Below, one piece after another: positions 258 to 39,718 of a stretch of 64,000 nt of DNA (position 1 is its first letter; each line of letters starts with the position of its first letter). Source of the DNA: Methylococcus geothermalis (GTDB lineage Bacteria > Pseudomonadota > Gammaproteobacteria > Methylococcales > Methylococcaceae). Below the pieces are notes generated by a model. It made no database searches and was not told the DNA's origin. It saw nothing but the letters and a program-made list of their open reading frames with translations. The translations under genes and the position numbers were made by a program. The stretch covers positions 2,556,501-2,620,500 of the forward strand of contig NZ_CP046565.1 of assembly GCF_012769535.1 (NCBI RefSeq), read 5' to 3'.

Positions 258-3200
258 ATGGAAAAAGTCATTGCAATCACTCCTCCTCACTGTACCCGCC
301 CCGAAATGGTGATCGCGGCATGCAGAGCCGGGGGCATAGGGGTGGTGGATCTAGGCTACCGCGACATATTCGATTGGTCGGTCGCTAATTTAGGCCGTAT
401 TGAATCCAGCGTCGATCGCACCTCGCTTTGGGGTGTCCGCTGGGATACCTTGGGTTTGCCGCAGCGCAGTCCGGAACTATTACTCAAATTATTTCGCCGT
501 TCTCGTCCTGTTCCGATTCTCGTGTTGGCGGGCCAGCAACCCGCTGAATTCCCCCGTTTCCGCGAGCTAACGCGACGGATCGCTCGACAAGCATTCGTCG
601 AGGTTCATGATTTGGAGTCTGCCCGAAGCGCCATTGCCGCCGGATACGACGGTCTGATCGTCAAGGGACACGAGGCGGGCGGCTTGGTGAGCAAGCACTC
701 GACCTTCATCCTGCTCCAAGAACTCCATGGCAAACTGAACGCTCCCTATTGGGTACAGGGAGGGATCGGCCCGCGCAGCGCCGCCGCGGCGATCTTAGCC
801 GGAGCAAGAGGCGTGGTATTGTGCGAACAACTCTGGCTTGCCGACGAAAGTCCTTTCTCCCGCACCGATATGCGCAATGCCTGGAGTCGGCTCGACGGAA
901 GTGAAACCATCCTGCTTGGACCCGATGATGTTCCCTATCGCCTGTTCAGCCGCTGGGGCCGAGGCAAACTTCGCGAACTGGAGCAACGGATTCTGCACGG
1001 CGAGCCGTGGCGAGAACGGTTGTCCCAATACCTGGGCGAGGCGGACGATCCGCTATTGCCGTTAGGCCAAGATATTACCTTTGCCGCCCCATTGGCAAAA
1101 CGTTACGGCACGGTCGGCCGCATCGTCACGGCGATCCGCAACGACATGGAGTCGACCGTGCGACTTGCCCGCTCTCAGAGGGTTTTTTCTCCGGAAAGCC
1201 CATTGGCGCGTAGCCACGGCACCCGGTATCCGATCGTGCAGGGTCCCATGACACGGGTCAGCGACACGGCCGCTTTCGCCAAGGCGGTGGCCGATGGCGG
1301 GGCGCTGCCCTTTCTCGCGCTGTCCGTGATGCGCAAGCCGCAAGTCCGGGAACTGCTGACGGAGACCCGATCCTTGTTGGGGGAGCAACCTTGGGGCGTG
1401 GGATTGCTGGGCTTCATGCCGCTCGAGTTTCGCCAAGAGCAAATCGAGGTGATTCGAGAGATCAAGCCGCCCTTCGCCATCATCGCCGGCGGTCGACCCA
1501 GCCAAGCCCGTGAGCTGGAAGAACTGTCGATCGCCACCTATCTGCACGTGCCGTCCCCGGGGCTCTTGCATGGATTCCTCAAGGAAGGCGCACGGAAGTT
1601 CATTTTCGAAGGCAGTGAATGCGGCGGGCACACGGGGCCACGGACCAGTTTCATCCTGTGGGAGTCTGCCATCGAGATCCTGCTGACAGCCGAGATCCCG
1701 GATGCCGAATCGGTCCATGTCTTATTCGCCGGAGGCATTCATGACGCGGTATCGACCGCCATGCTTTCGGTTCTCGCCGCCCCGCTCGTTGCCCGAGGCA
1801 TGAAAGTGGGGATATTGATGGGCACCGCGTATCTCTTCACCGAAGAGATCGTGCGCACCGGAGCAATCGTCGAGGAATTTCAGGCGCATGCCGTTACTTG
1901 CAAGGAAACGGTTTTGCTGCAATCGGGCGTGGGAGTCTACACCCGTTGCGCCAAAACGGATTTCTGCGATGAGTTCAATCGCAAACGACGCGAGCTGTTG
2001 TTGGCACAGGAAAGCGATGACGATATCCTGAAATCGTTGGAGATGCTCAATATCGGCCGTCTGCGCATCGCATCGAAGGGTATCACCCGCAATGATCTGG
2101 ATCCGACGGCGAAGAGTAGTGGTGATCGATATTTCAAGGTGGACGTTGCGACGCAGCGACGCGAAGGGATGTACATGCTCGGGGAAGTCGCGCGGCTTCG
2201 TAATAGTACATTGAAGATCGCCGAACTGCACCAGTCAGTGTCGGAAGGGAGCGGCGAGGTACTTGTTCACGCTAATGAGAATGAGCGCCAGCGTCCGATG
2301 CGCGCGGGTCGCGGAGTGACGCAACGAGATATCGCCATCATCGGCATGGCTTGCCTCTTGCCCAAGGCTCAGAACCTGCGCACGTATTGGCAGAATATCA
2401 TCAACCGAGTGGAGGCCATTCGCGAAGTATCCGAGGACCGTTGGCGTCCCATCGACTTTTTCGATCCCCGACGCGGGATCAAGGACAAAATTTATTCAAA
2501 ATGGGGCGGTTTTCTCGACGACATCCAATTCGACCCGACTGCATGGGGGATCCCTCCCGCCAGCCTGAAAGCCATCGAACCGATGCAATTGCTGGCATTG
2601 GTGGTGGCCCGGCAAGCGCTGGAAGATGCTGCCTTGGAGCGGCGACCGTTTGCCCGTGAACGCACGGCGACCATTTTCGGGGCGGGCGGTATGCATGACC
2701 TTGGTACACTCTATATCTTCCGCACCCTCCTCGCTCAATACCTTCCCAAGGTCCCGGGTCTTCCGGAGTCAACGCGGCAACACATCATTAAGTCACTTTA
2801 TGAAAAGGAGCTGCCGGTCTGGACCGAGGACTCTTTTCCAGGGTTCCTCGGCAACGTGGTGGCGGGTCGGGTCGCCAACCGGCTCGATCTCGGTGGAACC
2901 AACTTCACGGTGGACGCAGCCTGCGCCTCTTCTCTAGCCGCGCTGGACGCCGGCATCCGGCAGTTGCGTGATGGTGACGCCGACGTAGCCTTGGTTGGGG
3001 CGGTCGATGGCACCAATAATTCCACGTCGTTCATGGCCTTTGCGCAAACCCATGCGCTCTCGCCACGCGGCCGGTGTCGCCCGTTCGACGATAGCGCCGA
3101 CGGCATCGCCATCGGCGAAGGCGTGGTTGCGTTGGTTCTCAAGCGCCTGGCGGATGCCGAACGCGATGGCGATCGCATTCGTGGCATCATCAAGGGCATC

Positions 3201-6200
3201 GGAAGTTCCGCCGACGGCCGCAACCGCAGTCTGACGGCTCCGCACCCTCAGGGCCAAGCCCGGGCCTTGCATCGGGCTTACGAGGATGCCGGCGTCGAAC
3301 CATCCACAGTGACGCTGATCGAGGCGCATGGCACGGGGACCGCCGTGGGCGACAAATCCGAGATCGAGACACTGAACACCGTTTTCGGTGAATCAGGGGC
3401 CGAGCCGCAAACGTGCGCGGTCGGTTCAGTGAAGTCGATGATCGGTCACACCAAGGTGACCTCCGGTCTGGCAGCGCTCGCCAAGGCGACACTCGCCCTC
3501 GAGCACCGTGTACTGCCGCCGACACTGGGCGTCGAAAAGCCGAATGCCAGCGTGGATTTTGCCCACAGCCCGTTCTATATCTGCACGGAGCCTCGTCCCT
3601 GGCTCGCTCCCCCCAAGGGTCATCCCCGCCGCTGTGGGGTGAGTGCCTTCGGGTTCGGCGGCACCAATTTTCATGTCGTGCTGGAGGAGTACACGCGCGG
3701 ATATCGCGATACGGACACGGTGGACCTCAATCCACGCGACGCCGAACCCTTCGCCTTTTGGGGGGCTGACCGCAAGCATATCGAGCAGACCCTACGATGC
3801 CTGTTGGAGGGGCTCGAACATCCGGACTACCTGGATTTCGGGCAACTGGCTCATGCCGTGCACTTGGAACAACAGCGCATTCCGTCTTCCGACCGCAAGT
3901 GCCGCTTGGCCTTGGTGGCAACTTCGACGATCGACTTGAGGCAAAAGCTCGAATTGGCATTGCGAGCTCTGGCCGATAACGGCAAAACGGAATTCAAATA
4001 TCCGCAGGGAATCTACTTCCGGGAAAATATCGATCCGATGGCGGTATGTTTCCTGTTCCCTGGTCAAGGGTCGCAGAAGATCAATATGCTCCGCGACCTG
4101 ATTCTCGCTCGTCCCGCCCTGCATGAACTTTTCGAACGCGCAGATCGGCTCCTGGCGGACCGTCTCCCCCAGCCGCTTTCCAGGTACATTTACCCACTCC
4201 CCGTATTCAGCGACGAAGAGCGGGCACGTCAGCAAACTGCCCTAAATGCCACCCAGATCGCGCAGCCCGCTCTCGGAGTCGTGGAGCTGGCTGCGGCCCG
4301 GCTCCTGGAATCCTTCGGCATCAGACCCGACTTCGTCGCCGGGCACAGTTACGGCGAGTACGTGGCCCTGTGTGCGGCAGGGGGAGTCAACCCCGATGAC
4401 CTCATCCGGCTATCAGAAATCCGCGGACGCATCGCCGCCAACGCAGGGCGCGAATCCGGTGGAGCGATGGCGGCGGTAAGCGGTGATGGTCCCGGCACCG
4501 AAGCGCTCATCGCCAAACATGGTTTGCCCGTGCATATCGCCAATTTCAATACCCCCGATCAAACGATCATCGCCGGGCCCAGTGCGGCGATCGATCAGGC
4601 GGTGGCCGTTCTCAGTGGGGGATCGCTACGGGTCACCAAACTGCAGGTGAGCGGTGCGTTCCATTGTCCTATGATGAGCGATGCGCGCGATGCTCTCGCG
4701 GCAGAACTGTCTCGGATCAAGTTCACGACACCGACCATCCCAGTTTACAGCAACACCACGGCGGGCCGTTATCCCGACAAACCCGGAGACGTTTGTGCTC
4801 TCCTGACCCGGCATATCGTCGAACCCGTGCGTTTCGTGGAAGAGGTGAACCACCTCTATGAGGCGGGTGCCCGCGTTTTCATCGAGGTCGGACCGGGCTC
4901 GGTGTTGACTGGGATTGTAGACCGCATTCTGGCAGAGCGGCCCCACACGGCCTTGGGGATCGATGCTCCGGGGCGTCCCGGCTGGCTGCAACTGGCCCAT
5001 GCAATGACCCATTTGTTCACCCTAGGGGTGCCGGTAACCTTCCAAACGTGGTTCCAAGGCCGAGGATTCAAGGATTTCGCTCCGGCCGATTCGTTCGCCG
5101 AGGCAGAGAGGAAAGCCCATCCAGGCCCCCTAACCTGGAGAATCAACGGAGGCAGGGCAGCGCCTTGGGAGATCAAAACGGACAAAGCGGACGGAATCCA
5201 GGATACCGTTCCTCTTTCTCTACCTGAGCAAGGAGCCGCCCTTGACGCGCCGGCCCCGGCCAAAACTGTCGGTCCGGAACACCAGGAAAACCGTATCCTT
5301 GCCCCAAATCAAAGGAGTAACATCATGAATACTACGGAAATGACCCATTGGACAGAGACAACCGAACATGCAAGCCCCCCACCGGCAGTCCCCCCACCGG
5401 CAGTAAGCGACGCCCGCCTCGCCTTTGTGCAGCAAAGTCTTGCCCAATTCATCGACCTGCAAAAGGAGCAACAGCAGACATTGCGCCATTTCCTGAGCTT
5501 TTTGCACGCGAATCTTGCCGGTACGGAGCTGCCACTGCAGGGATGGCAGACGGAATCTCAGGCCATCGCACCGCAACCTTTGCAAACACAGGCAGTCCCA
5601 CCCAGCCCGCCACGAGGAGTGGTCCTCGCCGCGGTTCCACCCGCCCCAGTATTGCCCAACCAGATACTTGCCGCGAGTGGCCCGGTGACTCCAAGCGCTC
5701 CGATCGTCCAGAATGCATCAGTTCGTCCGCAGGAGTCGGCATCCAAGGCCCACAACGTGGTTCCCTTACCCAATGCGTTCCCTCCCCAAGCAGCCAAGGC
5801 TGGAGGTAATCTCGCGCCTACGGAACAATTCAAGGCCGATTTGCTTCGGGCGATCGCGGAGCGTACCGGCTATCCGGAAGAGATGCTCGACTTGGATGCA
5901 CACATGGAGGCGGATCTCGGCATCGACTCCATCAAGCGCATCGAAGTGTTCAGCATGTTGAAGGACCAGCACAACCTTCTGGAAGGGCGGGATGAAGAAA
6001 CCGTCATCGAGGAGCTGTCGGGCCTGAAGACCCTGAATGAAATCATCGCTTGGTATGACCGCTTGCGTGAATCGGGGTCGGAAGCGAAGGAAGGAGGGAT
6101 TCCATCCCCAAAAAAATCCCAGACTCCGCCGTCAGTCTCGCCGGTTGAGACGGCGGAGTCCAGACCGACTGCATACGAGCCGGCGGATCCCGTAAGATGT

Positions 6201-7808
6201 TATGCGTTAAAACCGGTGCCGGCACCCTGGAACGGAACGCTTACTGGTTTCTGCGAGCTACCCTTGCTCTTACTCGGACCGGCCGGGGAGGTCACCGAGA
6301 CTTTCAGGCAAACATTGGCGGATGAAGGGCATACCGTATGGCGGATCGTCCCGGGCCAGGAAACGGTCAGCCGGGAAGACGGATTGTTCGAGGTAGACTT
6401 CACTTCACCGAATACAGTCGAGAAACTGAAAGCTTTGGTGGCGAATACGGGAAAGACGCCGGGGGGCCTCATCAATGTTCTCGGCGTAGCAACGCCCGAC
6501 GATTCGTTGGGCGGCAGAACCGATCCGGCACGGATCCTGTTTCTCACTATGAAAGCATTGGGAAGCAGCCTTGAGGAAGGCGTATCTGCCGGTGGGGGCT
6601 GGCTCGTCAATGTTACTGCCATGGATGGGCAGTTTGGCCTCGGAGGCACCGGAATATTTTCCGTGGGGGGTGCGGGCAGTCACGGCGTTGCCAAGTCGGC
6701 AGCACGGGAGTGGCCTCAGTTACGGCTTAAATGCGTCGACCTTCAGACAGCATTGAGTCCTTCCCAATGGGCGGAAAACTTGGTCATGGAATTGCATTGT
6801 GGGGATTCCGCACCGGAGGTGGGCTTCACCACTTCCGGGCGCTGGCGGCTGGAGCTGGAATCTTACGATAGCGAAAGCGGTCTTTCTGGACCGGAGCTCG
6901 AACCTGGCGCAGTAATACTGGCTATGGGTGGCGCTCAGGGAATCACAAGCGACATCGTGAAATTCATGGCGCAACGGTACCAGGCACAGTTCGTACTGGT
7001 CGGGCGGACGCATCTTCCTAAGGAAGAAGGGGAATCGACCCGACATATCACCGATCCAGGAGAATTACGTCAATTTCTTATCGGCGAACAAAAGGCAAAA
7101 AGCGAACATAAAGTCAAGCCAGCAGAAGTGGAAGCGGAACTGAAGCGAATTCTCAAGATACGAGAGCTCCGGGGTAATCTGGACTTCCTGAAGGAGGCCG
7201 GTGTCAAGGTGGAATACCACGCTGTAGATGTCCGCGATGCCGAAATGTTCGGCCAATTGATCGATGATCTCTACGCCCGGCTGGGGCGCATTGATGGTGT
7301 CCTGCATGGTGCCGGAATCATCGAAGATAAGCTGGTTCGTGATAAGTCCGAGGCTTCTTTCGATGCCGTCTACCAGACTAAAGTTGTTCCGGCCCTGACT
7401 TTGGAACGAAAGCTAAGGTTTGAGAGTTTGAAGTTTCTAGTTTTCTTCTCATCGGTGGCGGGACGGTTTGGAAACATCGGCCAATGCGATTACAGTGCGG
7501 CGAATGAAGTGCTCAATAAACTGGCGGATCGCCTCAGTCTGGAATGGCCGAATGTCCATACGGTTTCCATCAACTGGGGACCTTGGGACTCCGGCATGGT
7601 GAACGACGAGCTACGGCGGTTATACGCTACGCGCAACATCCATCTCATCCCAGTGGCGACTGGGACGAGGCGTTTCATGGAAGCACTAGGAAATCCCCCG
7701 GGACAAGCTCCAGAACTCGTGATCACTGCAAGCCTGGATTCCATCGCTGCGGTAAATCGGAAAACAAAATTGCGTGAAAATATCCCCAAGGACTTGACAC
7801 CTTGCTAA
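258..7808 (+). CDS. PUFA-synthase-like modular polyketide/lipid synthase (ER-like x2, KS, AT, ACP, KR)
   Basis: About 2516 aa. Domains in order: two consecutive FMN-dependent nitronate monooxygenase/PfaD-like barrels (about 1-300 and 317-632, the second with SECGGHTGPR), ketosynthase (about 690-1132, DAACASS with Cys889, His1024 in EAHGTGT, His1064), acyltransferase (about 1264-1560, GHSYGEY with Ser1364), a Pro/Ala-rich linker, one acyl carrier protein (LGIDSIKR, Ser1891) and a PfaA-like ketoreductase (about 2214-2500, Tyr2412 in YSAANE). It should elongate and partly reduce an acyl chain in the cytoplasm; the PfaD-like domains could act as enoyl reductase. There is no dehydratase inside; one is encoded two genes downstream. 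I chose ATG 258 because GGAG lies 7 nt upstream; ATG 234 is in frame but has no good ribosome site. It is first of seven co-directional genes. Product unknown. Confidence 0.9.
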   Translation: MEKVIAITPPHCTRPEMVIAACRAGGIGVVDLGYRDIFDWSVANLGRIESSVDRTSLWGVRWDTLGLPQRSPELLLKLFRRSRPVPILVLAGQQPAEFPRFRELTRRIARQAFVEVHDLESARSAIAAGYDGLIVKGHEAGGLVSKHSTFILLQELHGKLNAPYWVQGGIGPRSAAAAILAGARGVVLCEQLWLADESPFSRTDMRNAWSRLDGSETILLGPDDVPYRLFSRWGRGKLRELEQRILHGEPWRERLSQYLGEADDPLLPLGQDITFAAPLAKRYGTVGRIVTAIRNDMESTVRLARSQRVFSPESPLARSHGTRYPIVQGPMTRVSDTAAFAKAVADGGALPFLALSVMRKPQVRELLTETRSLLGEQPWGVGLLGFMPLEFRQEQIEVIREIKPPFAIIAGGRPSQARELEELSIATYLHVPSPGLLHGFLKEGARKFIFEGSECGGHTGPRTSFILWESAIEILLTAEIPDAESVHVLFAGGIHDAVSTAMLSVLAAPLVARGMKVGILMGTAYLFTEEIVRTGAIVEEFQAHAVTCKETVLLQSGVGVYTRCAKTDFCDEFNRKRRELLLAQESDDDILKSLEMLNIGRLRIASKGITRNDLDPTAKSSGDRYFKVDVATQRREGMYMLGEVARLRNSTLKIAELHQSVSEGSGEVLVHANENERQRPMRAGRGVTQRDIAIIGMACLLPKAQNLRTYWQNIINRVEAIREVSEDRWRPIDFFDPRRGIKDKIYSKWGGFLDDIQFDPTAWGIPPASLKAIEPMQLLALVVARQALEDAALERRPFARERTATIFGAGGMHDLGTLYIFRTLLAQYLPKVPGLPESTRQHIIKSLYEKELPVWTEDSFPGFLGNVVAGRVANRLDLGGTNFTVDAACASSLAALDAGIRQLRDGDADVALVGAVDGTNNSTSFMAFAQTHALSPRGRCRPFDDSADGIAIGEGVVALVLKRLADAERDGDRIRGIIKGIGSSADGRNRSLTAPHPQGQARALHRAYEDAGVEPSTVTLIEAHGTGTAVGDKSEIETLNTVFGESGAEPQTCAVGSVKSMIGHTKVTSGLAALAKATLALEHRVLPPTLGVEKPNASVDFAHSPFYICTEPRPWLAPPKGHPRRCGVSAFGFGGTNFHVVLEEYTRGYRDTDTVDLNPRDAEPFAFWGADRKHIEQTLRCLLEGLEHPDYLDFGQLAHAVHLEQQRIPSSDRKCRLALVATSTIDLRQKLELALRALADNGKTEFKYPQGIYFRENIDPMAVCFLFPGQGSQKINMLRDLILARPALHELFERADRLLADRLPQPLSRYIYPLPVFSDEERARQQTALNATQIAQPALGVVELAAARLLESFGIRPDFVAGHSYGEYVALCAAGGVNPDDLIRLSEIRGRIAANAGRESGGAMAAVSGDGPGTEALIAKHGLPVHIANFNTPDQTIIAGPSAAIDQAVAVLSGGSLRVTKLQVSGAFHCPMMSDARDALAAELSRIKFTTPTIPVYSNTTAGRYPDKPGDVCALLTRHIVEPVRFVEEVNHLYEAGARVFIEVGPGSVLTGIVDRILAERPHTALGIDAPGRPGWLQLAHAMTHLFTLGVPVTFQTWFQGRGFKDFAPADSFAEAERKAHPGPLTWRINGGRAAPWEIKTDKADGIQDTVPLSLPEQGAALDAPAPAKTVGPEHQENRILAPNQRSNIMNTTEMTHWTETTEHASPPPAVPPPAVSDARLAFVQQSLAQFIDLQKEQQQTLRHFLSFLHANLAGTELPLQGWQTESQAIAPQPLQTQAVPPSPPRGVVLAAVPPAPVLPNQILAASGPVTPSAPIVQNASVRPQESASKAHNVVPLPNAFPPQAAKAGGNLAPTEQFKADLLRAIAERTGYPEEMLDLDAHMEADLGIDSIKRIEVFSMLKDQHNLLEGRDEETVIEELSGLKTLNEIIAWYDRLRESGSEAKEGGIPSPKKSQTPPSVSPVETAESRPTAYEPADPVRCYALKPVPAPWNGTLTGFCELPLLLLGPAGEVTETFRQTLADEGHTVWRIVPGQETVSREDGLFEVDFTSPNTVEKLKALVANTGKTPGGLINVLGVATPDDSLGGRTDPARILFLTMKALGSSLEEGVSAGGGWLVNVTAMDGQFGLGGTGIFSVGGAGSHGVAKSAAREWPQLRLKCVDLQTALSPSQWAENLVMELHCGDSAPEVGFTTSGRWRLELESYDSESGLSGPELEPGAVILAMGGAQGITSDIVKFMAQRYQAQFVLVGRTHLPKEEGESTRHITDPGELRQFLIGEQKAKSEHKVKPAEVEAELKRILKIRELRGNLDFLKEAGVKVEYHAVDVRDAEMFGQLIDDLYARLGRIDGVLHGAGIIEDKLVRDKSEASFDAVYQTKVVPALTLERKLRFESLKFLVFFSSVAGRFGNIGQCDYSAANEVLNKLADRLSLEWPNVHTVSINWGPWDSGMVNDELRRLYATRNIHLIPVATGTRRFMEALGNPPGQAPELVITASLDSIAAVNRKTKLRENIPKDLTPC
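6122..6160. repeat. 12-bp perfect inverted repeat inside the synthase gene
   Basis: GACTCCGCCGTC at 6122-6133 is followed after 15 nt by its exact reverse complement at 6149-6160. It lies in the region coding for the low-complexity linker between the ACP and KR domains, where inserted sequence would be tolerated. It resembles the palindrome between mmoY and mmoX (41883-41910), which also contains GACTCCG. Confidence 0.6.
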
Positions 7809-7874
7809 TCAATAACTTATGCTTGGCAACAACTCTATGGAAGCCCCCAATCATATACTGAATTCAAGACCAAT

Positions 7875-9098
7875 ATGCCAAATTTCGATTCTACCGTATT
7901 AGGCGACTTTGTCCCGGTACAGTTTTCCAAGCCGGTCCCTCAACGTATCTCGCTGGAATTGTCAGCTTTCGGCTTTGCGAAAGCCCATTGCTTGAATAAC
8001 TCTATCGAGGACAAAGAAGGTTTTCGCCAAGCGTATCAAGAAGTGAAAAAACGGTTCGAGAAGTACGCGTTGTCGCCGTCTCACATCAAGCGCAGGCAAT
8101 TGGTATTCTTCCCGCGCCTCACCGATATTCGGATGGTCGATGGAGAATTCGTTCTTGCCGAACCGAAACACGAGTACCTGCGTCTTTTTAAGGACAAGAG
8201 CGACCCCCGTGGTTTGGATCTTAAGAGCCGACACGAAAACTACGCCAAAGTGGTGGACGAATGTCTGAAAAAGATGTATCCACCCAAGGAAGTGAAAGCG
8301 CCGGACGATGTTATCCATGTCACCTGCTCTGGTTACGTGGCCCCCAGCCCCGTGGAACGAATGGTGGCGAGGAAAGAGTGGTTCGATACCACAGTGACCC
8401 ACAGCTATCACATGGGATGTTATGGGGCCTTCCCTGCTATCAGAATGGCCCATGGATTTCTGGCCTCCTCGCATTGTGCCGCGACTCCCCCGAAGGAGCG
8501 TATTGATATCATCCATACCGAGCTCCTATCCGGCCACAACGATATTACGGATCTAAGCGCCGAAAATATCATCACGATGTCACTGTTCGCTGACGGATTT
8601 ATCCGATATTCCGCACTTCCTGAGGGGGTCGCACGCGAGAAAGGTATTGCTGGTTTGAAGATACTGACCTTCCACGAACATCTTTTGCCTGACTCCGCCG
8701 ACGACATGACTTGGGTGCCGGGATCCCATCAGTTTCACATGACCCTTTCGGTAATGGTTCCCGTGGTAATCAAGAATCATGTGAAACGCTTTGTAGAAGC
8801 TCTGCTGCGCCGGATTGGGGTGGACTTTGCCCACGAAAAACACACGCTCACCTTTGCTATTCATCCCGGCGGTCCAAAAATCGTCGAACACATCCAAAAC
8901 GAACTTGGTCTTGACGAAGACCAAGTTGCAATCAGCAAGGAGGTATTTCTTGAAAATGGCAATATGTCTTCAGCTACTGTACCCCATATCTTAAAGTCTA
9001 TTTTGGAGGAACGATCCATCAAATGCGGAACACGAGTCGTCTGCCTCGGTTTCGGACCAGGCCTCACCGTGACTGGATTGGTTTTGGAGAAACTTTGA
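7875..9098 (+). CDS. type III polyketide synthase (chalcone/stilbene synthase family)
   Basis: 407 aa, the usual length for the family. The thiolase-fold catalytic triad is visible: Cys182 in HMGCYGAFPA, His288 in FHMTLSV and Asn363 in ENGNMSS; the family signature FAIHPGGPKI lies between the last two. Type III enzymes condense a CoA- or ACP-bound starter with malonyl units and cyclise the product to a pyrone, resorcinol or phloroglucinol. It lies 66 bp after the modular synthase and 2 bp before the dehydratase gene, so the likely starter is the fatty chain made by those enzymes, as in the Azotobacter alkylresorcinol system (established for ArsA-D; inferred here). No strong ribosome site precedes the ATG. 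Ring type and chain length cannot be read from sequence. Confidence 0.9.
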   Translation: MPNFDSTVLGDFVPVQFSKPVPQRISLELSAFGFAKAHCLNNSIEDKEGFRQAYQEVKKRFEKYALSPSHIKRRQLVFFPRLTDIRMVDGEFVLAEPKHEYLRLFKDKSDPRGLDLKSRHENYAKVVDECLKKMYPPKEVKAPDDVIHVTCSGYVAPSPVERMVARKEWFDTTVTHSYHMGCYGAFPAIRMAHGFLASSHCAATPPKERIDIIHTELLSGHNDITDLSAENIITMSLFADGFIRYSALPEGVAREKGIAGLKILTFHEHLLPDSADDMTWVPGSHQFHMTLSVMVPVVIKNHVKRFVEALLRRIGVDFAHEKHTLTFAIHPGGPKIVEHIQNELGLDEDQVAISKEVFLENGNMSSATVPHILKSILEERSIKCGTRVVCLGFGPGLTVTGLVLEKL

Positions 9099-9100
9099 TT

Positions 9101-10924
9101 ATGGCTGATCCAGCCAAGCTGCCCGACGACGGCAATCCCCTTCCTTTGATAGGACGGCTATACGAAATGGAGGCTTTCCGTGAAGCATCGGAGGCCATGG
9201 GAAGTTCGCTGCCGGACGCAACGGGAGAAACCGCTGGCCATTCGGAAACAATTGAGCCGCAATATGGAGCCGAGCTGCCCTTCGTCGGTCGAATAGTCGA
9301 TTACGTCGCTAACAATTCGATCCTCGTCGAACGCTGGCTGGACTTGGAAGAGGACCTCCATCTCGCGGATCACGCCTTTGTGAGCGCCGAGGGAGTCAAA
9401 CCGGTCTCCGCTTGCCTGCCGGTGGTGCCCATGACACTCAGCCTGGAAATGCTGGCGGAAACGGCAGCCTGCCTGGCGCCGGGTTTGGGCCTCATCGGCT
9501 TTGAAGACGTGAAAGCCACCAGCTGGATCGAGTTGGCCGACACCGACAAGCTGCGCCTGACGATTTCGGCCCGCACGCTGGAATCCGACGCGCAGGAACA
9601 ATACTGCCGGATCGCAGCCGCCATCCAGGCCGAAGGCCGGAGCGGCCCCGCCATTCAGGCCCAAGTGTTGTTTGCGTCGCATTATCGTCTCGAGCTGTCT
9701 CTGAGCTTCACCGAGCTCGGCAACCCGCGCGTCCATCCTCGGGATGCCAAGGAAATCTATGCGGATCGCTACTTGTTCCACGGCCCCGTCTACCAATGCC
9801 TGACCGGGAGAATCGTACTGGGCGACCGCGGGGCTGTCGGTGAGTTGGCGGTCAAAGCGCCTACGGATTTTTTTCGATCCACGGCCCGCCCCCAGTTCCT
9901 GACGGACCCCGCGCTGCTGGACGCCGTTGGCCAGTTGATCGGTATCTGGGCGATGGAGCAGGAACGTTATGTTTTTCCCATCGGCATCGGCAAAATGGAG
10001 TTTTACCGGCCTCCGCCACCTGCCGGAACGAACGTCCCGGTGCGCATCGAAGTCACCCGGAACGAGGGCAAGACGCTGGATTGCGACGTCGAAATTCAGG
10101 ATGGTGCGGGTGCCGTCTGGATGCGAATCAAGGACTGGAAAGACTGGAAATTCCGCTGGGAGCGGAGGCTCGTCGATTTCCGCCGCATGCCGACCCGCTA
10201 TCTCCTGAGCAAGTCCGTGCCGCTGCCGGGGCTTGCCCAAGATGCGGTCTGCTGCACGATATCGCCCGCCGACGTCTCGGATTTCGATGCCCGGCTCCTG
10301 GCATGCTTCTACCTTCAGAGGGAAGAGACGACGGCATTTTCCGAGAAGAAGGCGCAACCCCGCCGTCAACTGCACTGGTTGCTCGGGCGCATTGCCGCGA
10401 AGGACGCCGTGCGTTCCTGGTGGGCCCGACGGCAGGGAGCGTCCGCAATGCTGCATCCCGCCGCGTTCGCCCTGCGAAATACCGAGGCAGGCCAGCCGCA
10501 GGTGGCATCCTTGCCCACGGCTCCGGGAGTCGCACCCTACATCAGCATTTCTCATTGCGAGTCCGGCGCGATCGCCGTGGCACATGGCGAACCGATCGGC
10601 GTGGATATCGAAACGATCGAGGTCCGCGATCCCGGCTTTCTCCGATCTATCGCCATCGACACCGAAACCGCATTGCTGGAGGCCTTGGACGGCGAATTTA
10701 CCGACAAACCGGACGAATGGATCACACGCCTGTGGTGTGCCAAGGAGGCCACGGGAAAGCTGCTCGGTCAAGGACTGAACGGTTCCCCGCGGAACTACCA
10801 ACTGAAAACCGTCAGCCCCGAGGGACGAATGCAGATCACGCATGGCGAGAGCGGCCGGCTCGTCGGGGTGCGGACTCTCAGAGATCAGGAATGCATCATC
10901 GCTTACGCCACCCCCGAACCCTGA
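9101..10924 (+). CDS. fused polyketide dehydratase and Sfp-type phosphopantetheinyl transferase
   Basis: 607 aa. The first half is a PKS dehydratase-like double hotdog: candidate catalytic His91 (LADHAFVSAEG) and Asp274 in LLDAVGQL, a DxxxQ motif. The last part is an Sfp-type phosphopantetheinyl transferase with GVDIE (Asp502, Glu504) and WCAKEA (Lys548, Glu549). The dehydratase supplies the activity missing from the modular synthase, and the transferase would load phosphopantetheine onto Ser1891 of its ACP. ATG 9101 was preferred, 2 nt after the preceding stop with GGAG 12 nt upstream; an in-frame ATG at 9023 would overlap the type III PKS gene. The single-chain fusion of these two activities is unusual. 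Confidence 0.85.
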   Translation: MADPAKLPDDGNPLPLIGRLYEMEAFREASEAMGSSLPDATGETAGHSETIEPQYGAELPFVGRIVDYVANNSILVERWLDLEEDLHLADHAFVSAEGVKPVSACLPVVPMTLSLEMLAETAACLAPGLGLIGFEDVKATSWIELADTDKLRLTISARTLESDAQEQYCRIAAAIQAEGRSGPAIQAQVLFASHYRLELSLSFTELGNPRVHPRDAKEIYADRYLFHGPVYQCLTGRIVLGDRGAVGELAVKAPTDFFRSTARPQFLTDPALLDAVGQLIGIWAMEQERYVFPIGIGKMEFYRPPPPAGTNVPVRIEVTRNEGKTLDCDVEIQDGAGAVWMRIKDWKDWKFRWERRLVDFRRMPTRYLLSKSVPLPGLAQDAVCCTISPADVSDFDARLLACFYLQREETTAFSEKKAQPRRQLHWLLGRIAAKDAVRSWWARRQGASAMLHPAAFALRNTEAGQPQVASLPTAPGVAPYISISHCESGAIAVAHGEPIGVDIETIEVRDPGFLRSIAIDTETALLEALDGEFTDKPDEWITRLWCAKEATGKLLGQGLNGSPRNYQLKTVSPEGRMQITHGESGRLVGVRTLRDQECIIAYATPEP

Positions 10925-10985
10925 CATGCCTCCCCAACAAAACCGTGCGATCCTGCCTGAACCCGATACCAGCGGAGCCCAGACA

Positions 10986-11726
10986 ATGACGCCCAAGGAC
11001 ACCACGCCCCTGGTCGAGCTTCGCCAGGTCGGAAAGGTCTACAGCCTCGGCGAACGGAGTATCACGGCGCTTCAAGCCGTCAGCCTCCGTATCTTTTCCG
11101 GCGAATTCGTCGCCATATGGGGGCCGTCGGGATCGGGCAAATCGACGCTTTGCAATCTCATCGGGATGCTCGACGTCCCCTCCTCCGGCACCGTCCAGAT
11201 TCTCGGGCAGGATGTGACCATGCTCTCCGACGGAAAACGCAGCGACATCAGAAACAAAACCATAGGATTCGTATTTCAGAGCTTCAACCTGATTCCCGTA
11301 CTTTCAGCCCTGGAAAACGTGATGCTGCCGTTGCAGATCGCCAAAATCCCTACGATGCAAGCGAAACAGCTCGCAAAGGAGCGGCTCGCCGAGGTGGGGT
11401 TGGCCGAACACGAGTCACAACGGCCGGCCAAACTGTCCGGCGGACAACAGCAGCGGGTCGCCATCGCCCGCGCGCTTGTCGCAAATCCTTCACTGGTGAT
11501 CGCCGACGAGCCCACCGCCAATCTGGACTCCGAAAACGCCATCAAAGTGATCGAAACGATGCGGGAACTCAGCCAGAGAAACGGCACCACGTTCATCTTT
11601 TCCACCCACGACCATCGCTTGCTGGAACGCGTCGAACGTCAGCTACAGATGTGTGACGGCCAAATCATCGAAGACCGGATAGCCGAGCCGACGGAGTCCT
11701 GCCGACGAGTTCAGGTGGCACTGTGA
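10986..11726 (+). CDS. ABC transporter ATP-binding protein, LolD/MacB-type
   Basis: 246 aa from ATG 10986 (GGAG 8 nt upstream); ATG 10926 is an in-frame alternative 1 nt after the previous stop but adds only a proline-rich tail. Walker A GPSGSGKST, Q-loop in VFQSFNLIP, signature LSGGQQQR and Walker B LVIADEPTANLDSE are all present. The LolD/MacB subfamily powers extraction of lipoproteins, lipids or small molecules from the inner membrane rather than import. The stop overlaps the start of the permease gene by one base. The cargo is inferred to be the lipid made by the upstream enzymes. Confidence 0.92.
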   Translation: MTPKDTTPLVELRQVGKVYSLGERSITALQAVSLRIFSGEFVAIWGPSGSGKSTLCNLIGMLDVPSSGTVQILGQDVTMLSDGKRSDIRNKTIGFVFQSFNLIPVLSALENVMLPLQIAKIPTMQAKQLAKERLAEVGLAEHESQRPAKLSGGQQQRVAIARALVANPSLVIADEPTANLDSENAIKVIETMRELSQRNGTTFIFSTHDHRLLERVERQLQMCDGQIIEDRIAEPTESCRRVQVAL

Positions 11727-12973
11727 TGACTTGGCTCAAGCTCGCTGTAAGAAACCTTTTCCGCAACCGGCGCAGGTCGCTGTTCACCATCCTGGCCATT
11801 GCCCTGGGCTTTGCCGCGGTCAACGTTCTGGGAGGGTTTACCGACTACATCTTCAGTAATCTCGAGAATTCGTACATCCACGTTCAGGCCAACGGCCACC
11901 TCACGATTTTCAAGCCGGGATTCCTGAAGGAAGGAAAACTCGACCCGACCCGCTATCTATTGGACGAGGAATCCACCAAAACCATCGAAGAGATCCTGCA
12001 TCACTACCCCGAGGTGTTGGTCGTTACGCCCCAACTGCATATTTCCGGACTTCTCAGCAATGGCAAGGTTTCGACCATATTCCTGGCGTCAGGGCGCATT
12101 CCCTCCGATATCCGCACCATCAACAGCCACAGCCGGGGACTCGCAAGCAAATTCCAACAGTTCACCGGCAGGCCGCTCGAAGACGACGTCGTTTACGGCG
12201 TCGGACTCAGCAGAGGCTTGGCGGAGCAGCTGAATCTGGACATCGGCGCCACGGGCGTCGCCATGGCGCCCACCGTATCAGGTCAGGTCAATGCGCTCGA
12301 TGCCCAGGTATTCCAGTTATTTTCGGCCCCGATCGAGGCTCTGGATGACAAGCTCATGCTGGTTCCGCTCAAGTTTGCCCAAAGCCTTTACGACACCAGC
12401 AGCGTCGACCGCCTGATCGTGCTGCTGGAAAACACTACACAGACCGAACCGATCCGGAAACGGATGGCGCAAGATTTCAACGCTCGTGGCCTGAATCTGG
12501 AAATCAAGACATGGAACGAGCTTTCCACCTTTTATGTGAAAGTCAAGCAGATGTTCGACATCATCTTCCTTTTCACGTTTTTGATCGTATTCACGATCGT
12601 CGTGATGAGCGTCATCAACACCGTGAGCATGGCCATCATGGAACGAACCCGGGAAATCGGCACGCTGCGCGCCCTGGGACTCAAGCGCGGTGGCATCGTC
12701 GTACTGTTTGCCGCCGAAAGCCTGATGCTCGGCCTGTTCGGCTCCGCCCTGGGCGTGGTTCTCACCCTGCTGACATGGTCGGGTATCGCCTTGTTCAAAC
12801 CCACCTGGGTTCCCCCCATGATCACCGGGCGGGTCCCCCTCGAAATCTACCTGGTGCCTGAATACATGGCCTTCAGCGTCATATTGCTGGGTGTCTTGTC
12901 GCTGATGGCGGCGACACTTCCGGTTAGAAAAGCGGCTCGGATGGAAATTGTAACCGCGTTAGGGCATACCTGA
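11726..12973 (+). CDS. ABC transporter permease, MacB/LolC-type (FtsX fold)
   Basis: 415 aa. One transmembrane helix near the N-terminus (about 20-40), a large periplasmic MacB_PCD-like domain (about 45-270), then three helices in an FtsX domain (about 280-410) containing the family motif MERTREIGTLRALG. This four-helix topology is that of MacB/LolC/LolE mechanotransmission transporters. ATG 11726 overlaps the ATPase stop and has AGGTGG 7 nt upstream; a GTG one codon earlier is also possible. It presumably works as a homodimer with the ATPase, since only one permease gene is present. Confidence 0.9.
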   Translation: MTWLKLAVRNLFRNRRRSLFTILAIALGFAAVNVLGGFTDYIFSNLENSYIHVQANGHLTIFKPGFLKEGKLDPTRYLLDEESTKTIEEILHHYPEVLVVTPQLHISGLLSNGKVSTIFLASGRIPSDIRTINSHSRGLASKFQQFTGRPLEDDVVYGVGLSRGLAEQLNLDIGATGVAMAPTVSGQVNALDAQVFQLFSAPIEALDDKLMLVPLKFAQSLYDTSSVDRLIVLLENTTQTEPIRKRMAQDFNARGLNLEIKTWNELSTFYVKVKQMFDIIFLFTFLIVFTIVVMSVINTVSMAIMERTREIGTLRALGLKRGGIVVLFAAESLMLGLFGSALGVVLTLLTWSGIALFKPTWVPPMITGRVPLEIYLVPEYMAFSVILLGVLSLMAATLPVRKAARMEIVTALGHT

Positions 12974-12985
12974 GAGGCAAATAAA

Positions 12986-13729
12986 ATGAGAAGTGGATAT
13001 TTGTTCCTTCTGAGTATTATTTCTTTATTTTTATCCAATGAGGGACATGCGACGCAAAGCGTTTACGATATCCTCAAGAAAGCTGATGAATCCCGAGGCA
13101 ATGTCGTTGGCATTTCCTGGGAGGTTGTCATAGAATCGATTGAGGCAGATCGCACCACAGATACCGTCGTGTACAACATCAAAGCACGCGGATTCGATAT
13201 ATCGGGCCTGAGTCTGGAACCACCAAAATATAAAGGCAACAAGGTCCTTATGACAAATAACAACATGTGGTTCTACAAGCCAGGACTGAGCAAACCCATA
13301 CCCATTGCGCAGAGACAAAAGCTCATGGGTAACGCAGCCTATGGCGACATCGCGTCCACAAATTATGCTGAAGACTACGAACCCGCCGCTCTTCCTGACG
13401 AGATCGTCGACGGCGAAGATTGCTATGTCTTCGATCTCAAGAGCAAGAGTGATAAAACGACCTATGACAAGATCAAGTACTGGGTATCCAAGAAGCGTCT
13501 CGTCGGGATTAAGGCCGACTACTACACAGTCTCAGGGAAGAAATTCAAGACAGCCAATATGGAATATTCAAATACCGTGAAGGTTGATGGAAAGACCAGG
13601 CCGTTTATTTCCAAGATCACCATGCGTGACACGCTTATTAACGAGAATGTAACCTATATGAATATGAACAAGCCGCGGCTGGAGCCGCTCCCGGATTACA
13701 TATTCAACCTCAATCTCTTCATGAAATGA
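12986..13729 (+). CDS. LolA-like periplasmic outer membrane lipoprotein-sorting family protein
   Basis: 247 aa with a clear signal peptide (hydrophobic LFLLSIISLFL, cleavage near GHA at about 22). The rest resembles the LolA-like outer-membrane-lipoprotein-sorting domain: an N-terminal DILKKADE helix, strands around NNMWFYKPG, and MGNAAYGDIASTNYAEDY. Such proteins carry hydrophobic cargo across the periplasm, and several family members are paired with MMPL or MacB-like exporters. It follows the permease by 12 nt and overlaps the next gene by 4 nt. It is visibly more AT-rich than genes elsewhere in the window, in line with acquisition by transfer. Confidence 0.8.
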   Translation: MRSGYLFLLSIISLFLSNEGHATQSVYDILKKADESRGNVVGISWEVVIESIEADRTTDTVVYNIKARGFDISGLSLEPPKYKGNKVLMTNNNMWFYKPGLSKPIPIAQRQKLMGNAAYGDIASTNYAEDYEPAALPDEIVDGEDCYVFDLKSKSDKTTYDKIKYWVSKKRLVGIKADYYTVSGKKFKTANMEYSNTVKVDGKTRPFISKITMRDTLINENVTYMNMNKPRLEPLPDYIFNLNLFMK

Positions 13730-14973
13730 AACCGCATCGCTGGATTGTCTTTTCGTCGCTGATCGCTATCTCGCTTGGCACGGCAAACGCGAGTGACGAG
13801 CCGAGTTCGACGTCCAGCCTTCCCGAGGAAGAGTCTCTTTATGACGAGATCGAACGCGGATTCTACTCCCGAGTGAACGTGCTGGCCTTTGGTATTACGC
13901 AGCAACCTGCCGATCCGTCGGCCCTGAACACGAACAATGTCTTGGGTATCTCCAGATATCAGGCAGTCCTCAACCCACGCATCGATCTCAATCTCGATTT
14001 CCAACGACTGGAATTATCGGTAAAGGAACGGTTCCTCTATGTTTGGCAGCGCTGGGAAGAAGGCCTTCCCTCGGGGCGGGAAGACAGCACGGCGCAGTTT
14101 TACCTCAACGAAGGATTCGCACGTTATCGCCTTCTGGATGACCTCTTCGTTTCCTTCGGCCGGGAAAACCTCCAATGGGGACCTTCGGTGCTCCTCTCTT
14201 CCTCCAACCCGTTCAACCCCCAGAACGGGCGGAACAATCCCCGCGTGGAAGTCCCAGGCCTCGACTACGCCCGCGCCGTATGGGTACCGGATTCAAACTG
14301 GTCGGTGTCGTTTATCGCCAACACCAGTCCGGGAAGGCTCTTCAGTGCGAAACTCTTCGGTCTGGATCAAACCTCGTTCATCGGCCCTGCAACCAATGTC
14401 GAAGGCAGACGCTTTGAACAAAGCTACGCCCTCAAGACAGATTTTACGGGAGACGGAAAGTACTTTTCCCTTATTCCCACCTACCGGAACCAGAACGGCT
14501 ATCAGGTCGGATACTTAGGCGGCTGGAATGTCTCCGACGCACTTCTTCTGTATTCCGAAGGCTCGGCAGGCGAGCAGCGGGATTTCGAGGTGCAAATCGG
14601 CACCTCCTATACCTTCGAGGAAGGCGAAACTGTTAACCTTGAGTATTATCATAATGAAAATGGATGTCTGCTCGACAACATAAGGAGCTGTTTCACCACG
14701 CGCCAGATCACCTATAGGGACGTTTATTATCGACAGGATTACCTGATGGGACAGTTCACGGACAACAAGATCATCGGCGACTTGAACCTGAACCTCCGCT
14801 GGATCCATGACATCAACGACCAATCGAATCAGATTATAGGAATATTCGAATACGAAGCGAACAGAAATACGCTGCTCTATGTGATCGCCAACGGCTACAC
14901 GGGCGGGTCGAAAAGTGAATTCGGCAGTCTGCTCAACTACTCTCTCTTCGTCGGTGCGGGGTATACATTTTAA
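13726..14973 (+). CDS. outer-membrane beta-barrel protein of the lipid export operon
   Basis: 415 aa starting at an ATGA overlap with the LolA-like gene. A signal peptide (about 1-22) is followed by a short acidic Ser-rich stretch, then many alternating hydrophobic/polar strands typical of a porin-like barrel, ending in the terminal aromatic signature VGAGYTF used for Bam-dependent insertion. It contains SFGRENLQWGPS, a motif seen in capsule- or alginate-type barrel proteins. As last gene of the operon it could be the surface receptor for the exported product. No specific family was recognised with certainty. Confidence 0.7.
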   Translation: MKPHRWIVFSSLIAISLGTANASDEPSSTSSLPEEESLYDEIERGFYSRVNVLAFGITQQPADPSALNTNNVLGISRYQAVLNPRIDLNLDFQRLELSVKERFLYVWQRWEEGLPSGREDSTAQFYLNEGFARYRLLDDLFVSFGRENLQWGPSVLLSSSNPFNPQNGRNNPRVEVPGLDYARAVWVPDSNWSVSFIANTSPGRLFSAKLFGLDQTSFIGPATNVEGRRFEQSYALKTDFTGDGKYFSLIPTYRNQNGYQVGYLGGWNVSDALLLYSEGSAGEQRDFEVQIGTSYTFEEGETVNLEYYHNENGCLLDNIRSCFTTRQITYRDVYYRQDYLMGQFTDNKIIGDLNLNLRWIHDINDQSNQIIGIFEYEANRNTLLYVIANGYTGGSKSEFGSLLNYSLFVGAGYTF

Positions 14974-21444: not shown

Positions 21445-22045
21445 CGCCCATGCCTCGCTTCGGGTGGGGATAATGCTGGACAATATAACCCTTTTCCCCA
21501 GCCTGGCGGTCGAAGGCCCGTTGGAAACCTCGATCAACGACGGGCGCAGCCATGGGCGGCGCAGGCCATGCCGGAGACTCCGCCGTTCTTGGTGAGCCGT
21601 TCCGCTATCGGCCAGCAGCGAACTGACCACGACGCTTGCCGATGGCACGCCATTTCCACCGCCGCCCTGTGAACAAGCCGACGGCCAGGGCGCCACGACC
21701 CATACGAGACATCTTTTTTCCCGTTCGTCTCCCGCGCGAAATCGGAAAGAAACCCTTGCCTTGCCATGCTCGTGCTCCCGAGTTTTCATGACCTGGCTAG
21801 ACTATGCCGGACAGGACACCGACGTCACATCAGCATTCATCCTGCACGTATCAAACGAATGGACGGAAAATGTGACAGCAGGAGCCTGACGGGACGAGAC
21901 GCCGAACGGCGAACAAACTCGGAATGCCTAAATCATGTCGAGCCTATAGCGTTGGAAATGCGATGGCTGAAGAGTCGGCGAAGGCTTACAATCGCCACAC
22001 GATAACCTTGCTCCGTTGTCAGACTTTTTTTCGCAGGAGGACGTC
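21445..22045. other. intergenic region between pcm and the formate dehydrogenase operon
   Basis: About 600 bp between divergent genes. Short open frames exist on both strands but none has a credible ribosome site plus protein-like composition. Promoters for pcm (minus) and fdnG (plus) must lie here; I could not assign them. Confidence 0.4.
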
Positions 22046-25000
22046 ATGCAAGTCACCCGGCGCCAGTTCTTCAGACTGAGTGCCGCAACGCTCGGGGGTT
22101 CCTCGCTGGCCGTCATGGGGTTTTCGCCCCGCGAGGCGCTGGCGGAAGTGCGCGCGTTCAAGCTGGCGCGCACCACGGAAACCCGCAATACCTGCCCGTA
22201 TTGCTCGGTAGCCTGCGGTCTCATCCTGTACAGCCTCGGTGACGGCGCCAAGAACGCCAAGGCCGAGATCATCCACATCGAGGGCGACCCCGATCACCCG
22301 GTCAGCCGCGGCAGCCTCTGCCCCAAGGGCGCCGGGCTGCTCGACTTCGTCCACAGCCCGACCCGCACCCGGTTCCCCGAGTACCGGGCGCCGGGCGCCA
22401 AGGCGTGGACCCGCGTCAGCTGGGATTTCGCGCTGGAACGCATCGCGAAGCTCGTCAAGGAAGACCGCGATCGGAATTTCGTCGCTCGCAACGGCCAGGG
22501 GCAGACGGTCAACCGCTGGCCGACGGTCGGCTTCCTGGCGGCTTCCGCTTCGTCCAACGAAGCCGGCTACCTCACCCACAAGGTTCTCCGCAGCTTAGGA
22601 GTGGTCGCACTCGACAACCAGGCACGGGTCTGACACGCACCGACGGTGGCAAGTCTTGCTCCGACATTCGGTCGCGGCGCCATGACCAATACCTGGATGG
22701 ACATCAAGAATGCGAACGTCATTCTGGTGATGGGCGGCAATGCCGCCGAGGCGCATCCGGTCGGCTTCAAATGGGTGGTGGAAGCCAAGGCGCACAACAA
22801 GGCCAAGCTGATCGTGGTCGATCCGCGCTTCAACCGCACGGCTTCGGTGGCGGATTTGTACGCGCCGATCCGGGTGGGGACCGACATCGCCTTCCTGAGC
22901 GGGGTGATCCGCTACCTGTTCGAGCACGACGCGCTCCAGCATGAATACGTCAAGGCGTATACCAACGCCGCCTTCATCGTGCGCGAGGATTTCGGCTTCG
23001 ACGACGGGCTGTTCTCCGGCTACGACGAGAGCGCCCGCAAGTACGACAAGGCGAGCTGGCAATACGAGCTGGACGGCCAGGGTTATGCCCGGGTCGACGA
23101 GACCCTGCAGCATCCCCGCTGCGTGCTGAACCTGCTGAAGCAGCATGTCTCCCGCTACACCGTCGACATGGTCTGCGACCTCACCGGCACGCCGAGGGAG
23201 CTGTACCTGGAGGTCTGCGAGACGATCGCCTCCACCGCGGTCCCGACCCGAACCCTGACCAGCCTGTACGCCCTCGGCTGGACCCAGCACAGCATCGGCG
23301 CCCAGAACATCCGGACGCTGGCGATCCTGCAATTGCTGCTGGGCAACATCGGGATGCCGGGCGGCGGGGTCAATGCCCTGCGCGGCCATTCCAACATCCA
23401 GGGCCTGACCGACCTGGGGCTGCTGTCCGACCAGCTGCCGGGCTATATGACGCTCGCCCATGACGAGGAGACCACCCGCGCCGCCTATCTGGAAAAGCAC
23501 ACGCCCAAGCCCCTGAGGCCGGGACAGGTCAACTACTGGTCGAACTACCCCAAGTTCCATACCAGCTTGATGAAGGCCTGGTACGGCAAGGCGGCGACCG
23601 CGGACAACGACTTCTGCTATGACTGGCTGCCGAAGCTCGATCAGGTCTACGACGGCCTGCGGGTGTTCGACCAGATGGAACAGGGCAAGCTGACCGGCTA
23701 TTTCTGCCAGGGCTTCAACCCGCTGGCGTCCTTTCCCGACAAGGCCAAGATCACCTCGGCGCTGTCCAAGCTGAAGTTCCTGGTGGTGATGGACCCGCTG
23801 GCGACGGAAACCTCGGAGTTCTGGCAGGACCACGGCGAATACCACGAGGCAACGCCGGAAGCCATCCAGACCGAGGTGTTCCGCCTGCCCACCACCTGCT
23901 TCGCCGAGGAGGACGGCTCGCTGGTCAACAGTTCGCGCTGGCTGCAATGGCACTGGAAAGGCGCCGAACCGCCGGGGGAATGCCGCACCGACATCGACAT
24001 CATGGCCGAGCTGTTCATCAAAATCCGTGAACTGTACCGGCGGGAAGGCGGCGCCTTCCCCGATCCGATCCTCGGCCTGCACTGGCCTTACCGGATTCCG
24101 GAAGCGCCGGGGCCGGACGAACTGGCCAAGGAGTTCAATGGCTACGCCCTGGCCGACCTCACCGATCCCAAAGACCCGACGAAAGTGCTGGTCAAAGCCG
24201 GGCAGCAGCTCTCGAGCTTCGCCCAGCTCCGCGACGACGGCAGCACCGCCAGCGGCACCTGGATCTTCTGCGGCGCCTGGACCGAGGCCGGCAACCAGAT
24301 GGCCCGGCGCGACACCTCGGACCCCACCGGACTCGGCATCGCGCCCCACTGGGCCTGGGCCTGGCCGCTGAACCGGCGGATCCTCTACAACCGCGCCTCC
24401 TGTGATCCCGCCGGCAAGCCCTGGGACGAAAGGCGCAAGCTGATCGAATGGGATGGCAGCAAGTGGAGCGGGCTGGACGTGCCGGACTTCAAGACCGACG
24501 CCGGCCCCGACAGCGGCGTGTCGCCCTTCATCATGACCGACGAAGGAGTGGCCCGGCTGTTCGCGCGGCACCTGATGGCCGAAGGCCCCTTCCCCGAGCA
24601 TTACGAGCCGTTCGAAACGCCGCTGGCGGCCAACCCCCTGCACAGCAAGGTGATCAGCAACCCGGCGGCGCGCGTGTTCGCGGGCGACAAGGCCATGCTC
24701 GGCAGCCGGGAGGAATTCCCTTACGTCGCCACCACTTACCGCCTCACCGAGCACTTCCACTTCTGGACCAAGCATGCGCGGATCAATGCCTCGCTCCAGC
24801 CGGAGCAGTTCGTGGAAATCGGCGAGGCGCTGGCGGCGGAACTCGGCATCGCCAACGGCGAGAAGGTGGTCGTGCGCTCCAGGCGCGGCCGCATCAAGGC
24901 GGTGGCGTTGGTGACCAGGCGCATCAAGGCGCTGAAGGTCGCGGGCCAGACCGTGCACCAGATCGGCATCCCGATCCACTGGGGCTTCACCGGCGCGACC

Positions 25001-37840: not shown

Positions 37841-37856
37841 GTTGGGTCGACTCCAG

Positions 37857-38177: not shown

Positions 38178-38191
38178 GACGCTTCTCCGGA

Positions 38192-39238: not shown

Positions 39239-39250
39239 AAACTTACCTGT

Positions 39251-39562: not shown

Positions 39563-39630
39563 GGTGAATTCCTTACGAAAAATGGAGAAGCGTGCGGCGA
39601 ACCCGCGCGTTCCTTGAAAGCCGGAGGCTC

Positions 39631-39705: not shown

Positions 39706-39718
39706 AGACTTCCTCCCG

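Follow-up and report, generated by a model that had tools for sequence, protein, structure and literature searches.

A methanotroph ars-type operon for phenolic lipids that probably includes its own export line

We analyzed a 64,000-nt stretch of the Methylococcus geothermalis genome (GCF_012769535.1, contig NZ_CP046565.1, positions 2,556,501 to 2,620,500, forward strand), hereafter called the window, and found near its start seven genes that probably form an ars-type operon for phenolic lipids, together with a dedicated route for exporting the product to the outer membrane or the cell surface. The synthase half is the known ars phenolic-lipid system, here in a methanotroph, and the apparently unstudied part is the exporter, which would consist of an ATP-binding cassette (ABC) ATPase, a permease, a LolA-like carrier, and an outer-membrane barrel. 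The genome around the window comprises 3.37 Mb on a single contig.

As claimed by the first-pass annotation of this DNA, the seven open reading frames (ORFs) lie between positions 258 and 14973, all on the plus strand, with short gaps or overlaps between neighbors (Table 1). With refined starts, the successive junctions measure 66 nt, 2 nt, 61 nt, a 1- or 4-nt overlap, 12 nt, and a 4-nt overlap. For the first gene, a start at position 258 is favored by its homologs, whose alignments begin there, and the third and fourth genes most likely start at 9101 and 10986 rather than at 9023 and 10842, the starts in the plain ORF list. This spacing points to a single transcript for the seven genes; promoter- and terminator-like sites were not more frequent than in shuffled sequence. 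The functions initially assigned to the genes were supported by Pfam and NCBIfam matches and by motif checks. Indeed, we found the motifs of the ketosynthase (KS), acyltransferase (AT), acyl carrier protein (ACP), ketoreductase (KR), dehydratase, phosphopantetheinyl transferase (PPTase), and ATPase, as well as the Cys-His-Asn triad of the type III polyketide synthase (PKS).

Table 1. Predicted genes of the operon, in window coordinates
Feature	Position	Strand	Basis
ArsA-type type I fatty acid/polyketide synthase: NMO x2 (PfaD-like enoyl reductase), KS, AT, one ACP, KR	258..7808	+	Pfam, TIGR02813, active-site motifs, 57% identity to A. vinelandii ArsA
ArsB-type type III PKS; Cys182-His330-Asn363, Trp280	7875..9098	+	Chalcone/stilbene-synthase C-terminal domain; 64-65% identity to two A. 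vinelandii type III PKSs
ArsD-type fusion of PKS dehydratase and PPTase	9101..10924	+	PF14765 and PF01648, same pair in A. vinelandii ArsD
LolD/MacB-like ABC ATPase of putative exporter	10986..11726	+	TIGR02211; Walker A, signature, Walker B
Single LolC/E-like (type VII) ABC permease; start GTG 11723 or ATG 11726, overlaps ATPase stop	11723..12973	+	PF02687, PF12704
Predicted periplasmic LolA_like carrier, Sec-type N terminus, no lipobox cysteine (by eye)	12986..13729	+	PF17131; AlphaFold2, Foldseek
Predicted outer-membrane beta-barrel, 18 strands in model, C-terminal Phe	13726..14973	+	AlphaFold2, Foldseek; 16 orthologs at 39-63% identity

The first three genes matched the ars genes of Azotobacter vinelandii CA (locus L040) over nearly their full length, with 57% identity for ArsA, 64-65% for the two type III PKSs, and 47% for ArsD. 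Furthermore, the same nine Pfam families were found in the window synthase and in A. vinelandii ArsA. The window synthase also matched the omega_3_PfaA model (TIGR02813) at 1084.7 bits, above the cutoff of 1010.1. A polyunsaturated fatty acid (Pfa) synthase was nevertheless dropped as a candidate, the protein having one PP-binding stretch and not the tandem ACPs of PfaA, with no other pfa genes among the seven. The dehydratase domain that Pfam recognizes in the ArsD-type protein is predicted to supply the step missing from ArsA; a paper on A. vinelandii terms ArsD a PPTase. A. vinelandii and Beijerinckia indica have already been grouped by their Type P secondary-lipid synthases (Shulse and Allen 2011, PMC3098273). 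In Massilia cavernae (L031, 2444-9971), the synthase gene is split over several ORFs by a frameshift or an assembly error.

The type III PKS matched the crystallized A. vinelandii ArsC chains 3vs8 and 3vs9 at E values of about 1e-180, the next solved chain following at 6e-20. According to a review, 3vs8 is wild-type ArsC and 3vs9 is ArsC G284W, and mutagenesis showed that the W281G substitution costs ArsB its resorcinol formation and gives it pyrone formation, while ArsC G284W shifts in the opposite direction. Trp280 of the window protein aligns with Trp281 of ArsB; the second A. vinelandii copy (ArsC, Gly284) has a glycine. Among 50 aligned type III PKSs, this column held 41 Trp, 4 Glu, 3 Gly, and 2 Leu, and among the 38 from ArsA loci, the window included, 30 Trp, 4 Glu, 3 Gly, and 1 Leu. 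The three glycines belong to the second type III PKS copies of three Azotobacter species, and the catalytic triad was intact in all 38. Since the window protein has a Trp at the column of ArsB Trp281, an alkylresorcinol is predicted, and by analogy with the A. vinelandii enzymes this is most likely the lipid, rather than one of a new kind. The initial proposal of an operon making and exporting an unusual polyketide lipid was thus supported as to synthesis and export and not borne out as to the unusual lipid; a new lipid class was dropped because the synthase genes are ars orthologs. In Burkholderia and Paraburkholderia (L043-L046), the ring-closure position carries the Glu, and the product could differ.

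The same annotation had described the Azotobacter system as lacking a dedicated exporter in its operon, which is refuted by our comparison. In A. vinelandii CA, arsA-arsB-arsC-arsD is followed after about 90 nt by orthologs of all four exporter genes in the same order, with 64% identity for the ATPase, 67% for the permease, 65% for the carrier, and 46% for the barrel. It had also stated that no described system with this set of genes was known to it. A. vinelandii carries it; what holds is that we found no paper treating the four genes as an alkylresorcinol exporter in the open-license PubMed Central literature. In the portions of that literature available to us, which speak of an arsABCD operon, we found no discussion of the genes after arsD. 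For the locus tags 29480-29520, the only study found to mention any was a proteomic study of an algU mutant during encystment. There, Table 3 gives a fold change of 0 for Avin_29510, annotated as "ABC-type antimicrobial peptide transport system, ATPase component," as it does for ArsC, ArsB, and ArsA (Avin_29530, 29550, and 29560). The encystment section of that study does not discuss this ATPase. Mapped by gene order only, Avin_29510 should be the exporter ATPase, and its loss together with ArsA, ArsB, and ArsC weakly fits co-regulation.

Turning to the putative export proteins, the closest solved chains of the permease by sequence were LolE and then MacB. For the carrier, the AlphaFold2 model had a predicted local distance difference test (pLDDT) score of 68; its best Foldseek match was 3buu (NE2245), followed by LolA3 of Porphyromonas gingivalis, and its profile matched 3buu at 1.4e-50. 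The last protein had no family match in Pfam or NCBIfam, and a profile search against solved structures found no credible relative by sequence. Its AlphaFold2 model, built from an alignment of 17 sequences, itself included, was an 18-strand barrel with a mean pLDDT of 81, in agreement with the outer-membrane barrel first predicted. The nearest folds were MOMP, Occ porins, and the alginate exporter AlgE (query TM-scores, 0.49-0.56), with general porins close behind; identity was 8-13% among the matches listed, and such fold matches of a model indicate a barrel and little more. Neither an HlyD/membrane-fusion protein (MFP) adaptor nor TolC was recognized by Pfam or NCBIfam among the seven genes.

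To see how far synthase and exporter go together, we scanned the GTDB collection once with a seven-sequence profile and profile-searched the ORFs of the 41 named loci obtained, including flanks of as much as 10 kb; the counts that follow refer to these 41 loci only, since L018 and L027 share a contig, as do L019 and L025. ArsA, type III PKS, and ArsD occurred together in 30 of them. An exporter ATPase and permease of the window kind accompanied the synthase in 24 of the 30 (by record title Gamma- and Betaproteobacteria, including three Azotobacter loci). In five others, four from Methylocystis/Methylocystaceae and one from Beijerinckia mobilis, its place was taken by a permease, an ATPase, and an adaptor of the DevBCA-like kind, no more than about 3 kb downstream. 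In the last one (L029), the contig ends too soon to show an exporter. Both exporter types together were found in none of the 30 within the flanks examined, and if the four genes have an export role, one would expect just such a swap of exporters next to an unchanged synthase. The barrel was present in 17 of the 24 loci with the window-type exporter, absent from 6, and cut off by the end in 1. Of the 30 loci with ArsA, 26 had a single type III PKS gene. A type III PKS relative with neither ArsA nor a window-type exporter in the stretch examined was found at nine of the 41 loci (L050, L055-L061, and L063), several of these stretches being short.

Within the family, the same seven genes occur in the same order in three other genera, with 55-78% protein identity, and because of this recurrence the set is not a chance assembly. 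Among 38 genomes of the family, 9 had a permease ortholog and 7 a type III PKS, all 7 within the 9 (Fisher p = 2.9e-6, uncorrected for shared ancestry). Of 369 sampled genomes of the class, our own included, five had a permease match at 1e-60 and two a type III PKS match; both are therefore rare.

The DevBCA-like exporter was seen in the alphaproteobacterial ars clusters L016, L017, L030, L034-L036, and L052, with the adaptor matched in all seven and a TolC gene in L016 only. Two such loci, from Methylosinus and Beijerinckia indica, are on plasmids. The best models were DevC, DevA, and membrane-fusion protein, with all matches but one under the cutoffs; the Methylosinus permease matched DevC at 1e-38, also under the curated cutoff. 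The Methylocystis cluster L034 additionally holds FkbM methyltransferase and family 2 glycosyltransferase genes.

Among five congeners, three had no exporter ortholog and two, G002 and G003, had the operon without the type III PKS (L074, 3767-17131, and L073, 4091-17435, respectively). Both are single-contig genomes in which a 63-nt gap separates the synthase and ArsD ORFs. No type III PKS match was found at an E value of 0.001 in the whole G003 genome; G002 had one match of 26% identity elsewhere in its genome. The active-site motifs were present in both, and identities to the window proteins were 70% for ArsA, 82% for ArsD, 84-85% for the ATPase, 92-93% for the permease, 84-86% for the carrier, and 92-93% for the barrel. 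Since the permeases share 92-93% and the synthases 70%, the enzyme has diverged more than the exporter. Nucleotide similarity to the congeners extended over window positions 9274-14972 (84% and 83%) and, in the synthase gene, about 500-7650 (69-74%), with none at an E value of 1e-10 in the flanks compared. G002 and G003 together were sister to the window synthase with full support in the synthase tree, and in the permease tree the three formed one fully supported group of open inner order. The simplest reading is that the line of G002 and G003 lost its type III PKS, the alternative being a gain in the line of the window organism. Behind the barrel, both congeners have an unknown gene of 651-684 codons, followed in G003 by a fatty-acyl-reductase-like gene (PF07993).

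More distant relatives were also seen. On two Chlorobi contigs (L053 and L062), a more distant type III PKS (45%) stands beside genes for AcpS, a FabA-like protein, a KS, and two short-chain dehydrogenases/reductases (SDRs), and with them a related ATPase, permease, and carrier; it looks like a version of this pathway assembled from single enzymes. L053 carries a second type III PKS in which the aligned catalytic His and Asn are replaced. Beyond the orthologs, five distant exporter loci were examined (a second copy in G019, and loci in G018, G240, G341, and G368). KS genes lay nearby in G019, G240, and G341, namely, a KS-AT-ACP protein by the exporter homolog in G240 (L085) and paired KS genes in G341 (L086) and G019 (L075). 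No KS gene was seen in G018 and G368, the exporter of the latter lying 0.9 kb from the contig end.

On these grounds, the PPTase half of the ArsD-type protein would activate the ArsA-type synthase and its dehydratase half would complete it, and the synthase would build a long saturated acyl chain. The ArsB-type enzyme would take over this chain, add three malonyl units, and close the ring by aldol condensation, giving an alkylresorcinol. The ATPase-permease pair would then extract this product from the inner membrane and the LolA_like protein would ferry it across the periplasm; the barrel may help its delivery into or across the outer membrane. Gene content, order, conservation, and motifs underlie this scheme as observations; its chemistry is taken from the A. 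vinelandii enzymes, and we infer every transport step.

Several points weigh against an ars operon with its own export line. Adjacency to the ars genes is not proof of transport. The ATPase reached 241.8 bits with LolD (TIGR02211), its best NCBIfam model, under the cutoff of 307.75, and the permease 89.9 bits with the curated LolCE model, whose cutoff is 362.45. Six loci (L037, L043-L046, and L048) have no barrel ortholog beside the carrier even though the sequence runs on, and in G002 and G003 the exporter cannot depend on the ring made by this type III PKS. As for the algU study, 183 proteins were undetected in the mutant, which weakens the co-loss, and its Table 3 contains neither ArsD nor the other three expected exporter tags. 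Finally, alkylresorcinols pile up as cytoplasmic inclusions in an A. vinelandii overproducer. The lipid might accordingly stay mostly in inclusions or in the inner membrane, with the exporter removing only an excess. We consider this unlikely: papers describe alkylresorcinols as a component of the membrane and the cyst coat. Overproduction may have swamped an exporter in that strain.

The remaining alternatives concern the cargo. The four genes behind ArsD might instead serve a lipoprotein or some other part of the envelope and lie beside the ars genes for historical reasons, which would agree with their closest solved relatives, LolA-superfamily proteins and LolE. This is improbable given that the ars linkage is kept in all 24 of the Gamma- and Betaproteobacterial loci and that a DevBCA-like exporter takes this place in Alphaproteobacteria; moreover, a separate FtsX-type permease elsewhere in the genome, a weak match (E value of 1.3e-5), may be the housekeeping one. 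An alkylpyrone as the main product seems just as doubtful and was dropped: the pyrone-forming ArsC is about as similar to the window protein as ArsB is, but Trp280 matches ArsB and not Gly284 of ArsC, one residue admittedly not being the whole active site. A variant of the favored explanation, not exclusive of it, has a stronger claim, although we still incline against it. The exporter would recognize the long ArsA-built acyl chain with any head group, the type III PKS being one of several finishing steps, and in congeners without this enzyme it would carry a very-long-chain lipid, either free or modified in some other way. This would account for G002 and G003, which keep the synthase, ArsD, and the full exporter, for the Chlorobi contigs, where a related exporter is paired with dissociated enzymes plus a type III PKS, and for the three of five distant loci where KS genes lie close by and the stretch contains no type III PKS. 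However, the intact triad in the 38 aligned enzymes suggests that the cargo of the window organism probably bears the ring, the loci lacking a type III PKS have no known product, and two of the five distant loci have no KS gene. In its widest form, which we put forward with slightly more doubt than belief, the ATPase, permease, LolA_like carrier, and barrel would be a portable, Lol-derived exporter of long-chain polyketide lipids that reads the acyl chain and not the head group. It would serve type I ars synthases with or without a type III PKS, the dissociated clusters of Chlorobi, and other KS clusters, would be interchangeable with the DevBCA-like one, and would be the missing route of Azotobacter alkylresorcinols to the cyst coat.

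The G+C content is 52-60% in the first 16 kb, versus 60-69% in the remainder of the window, and transposase genes (HTH, DDE_3, DUF772, and DDE_Tnp_1) end about 300 nt upstream of the first gene (L021, 7384-9457, upstream of window base 1). Together with the patchy presence among the five congeners, this suggests that the operon is mobile. Elsewhere in the window, a SECIS_3 element (22628-22686) spans the break between two ORFs at 22016-25243, the second of which matches formate dehydrogenase-N alpha; the pair is probably one selenocysteine enzyme. Soluble methane monooxygenase genes (MmoY and MmoC) and a GroEL-like protein are encoded on the minus strand at 36161-41839, about 21 kb from the lipid operon; these monooxygenase genes mark the host as a methanotroph. 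In other genomes, a family 4 glycosyltransferase gene often follows the exporter (L026-L028, L038-L042, and others) and may make a glycosylated lipid. It has no close homolog in the window genome, where the best match to the A. vinelandii glycosyltransferase, 33% over part of its length, lies outside the window.

Overall, the four genes are a candidate for how alkylresorcinols leave the inner membrane, a step of which we found no account in the open-license PubMed Central literature, and alkylresorcinols are predicted in methanotrophs. During Azotobacter encystment, alkylresorcinols and alkylpyrones are reported to replace 95% of the membrane phospholipids. The comparison shows that other bacteria pair this synthase with a different exporter, and the congeners without a type III PKS raise the question of what the exporter recognizes.

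Compared with known systems, the operon resembles arsABCD of A. vinelandii in its synthase domains, type III PKS subfamily, dehydratase-PPTase fusion, and four downstream export genes in the same order. It differs in its single, ArsB-like type III PKS, where A. vinelandii has two, in the absence of a glycosyltransferase gene after the barrel, in the transposase genes directly upstream, and in its host. With LolCDE-LolA it shares a LolD-like ATPase, a LolC/E-like permease, and a LolA-fold carrier; unlike that system, it has one permease gene and not LolC plus LolE, its carrier belongs to PF17131, a barrel gene comes last, and a lipid synthase is linked to it. The heterocyst glycolipid exporter DevBCA-TolC also exports a PKS-made lipid, but it uses an HlyD-type adaptor and TolC, both absent from the window operon. 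YbbAP-TesA of Escherichia coli (PMC12646458) and Borrelia BBJ23-29 (PMC13078400) are type VII ABC transporters proposed to extract nonpolar ligands; in the parts of these papers available to us, no lipid synthase is named with either, unlike in the window operon. The Borrelia cluster comes close to ours in also having a LolA-like carrier and an outer-membrane protein, the latter of the Omp85 family in Borrelia and a porin-like barrel in the window.

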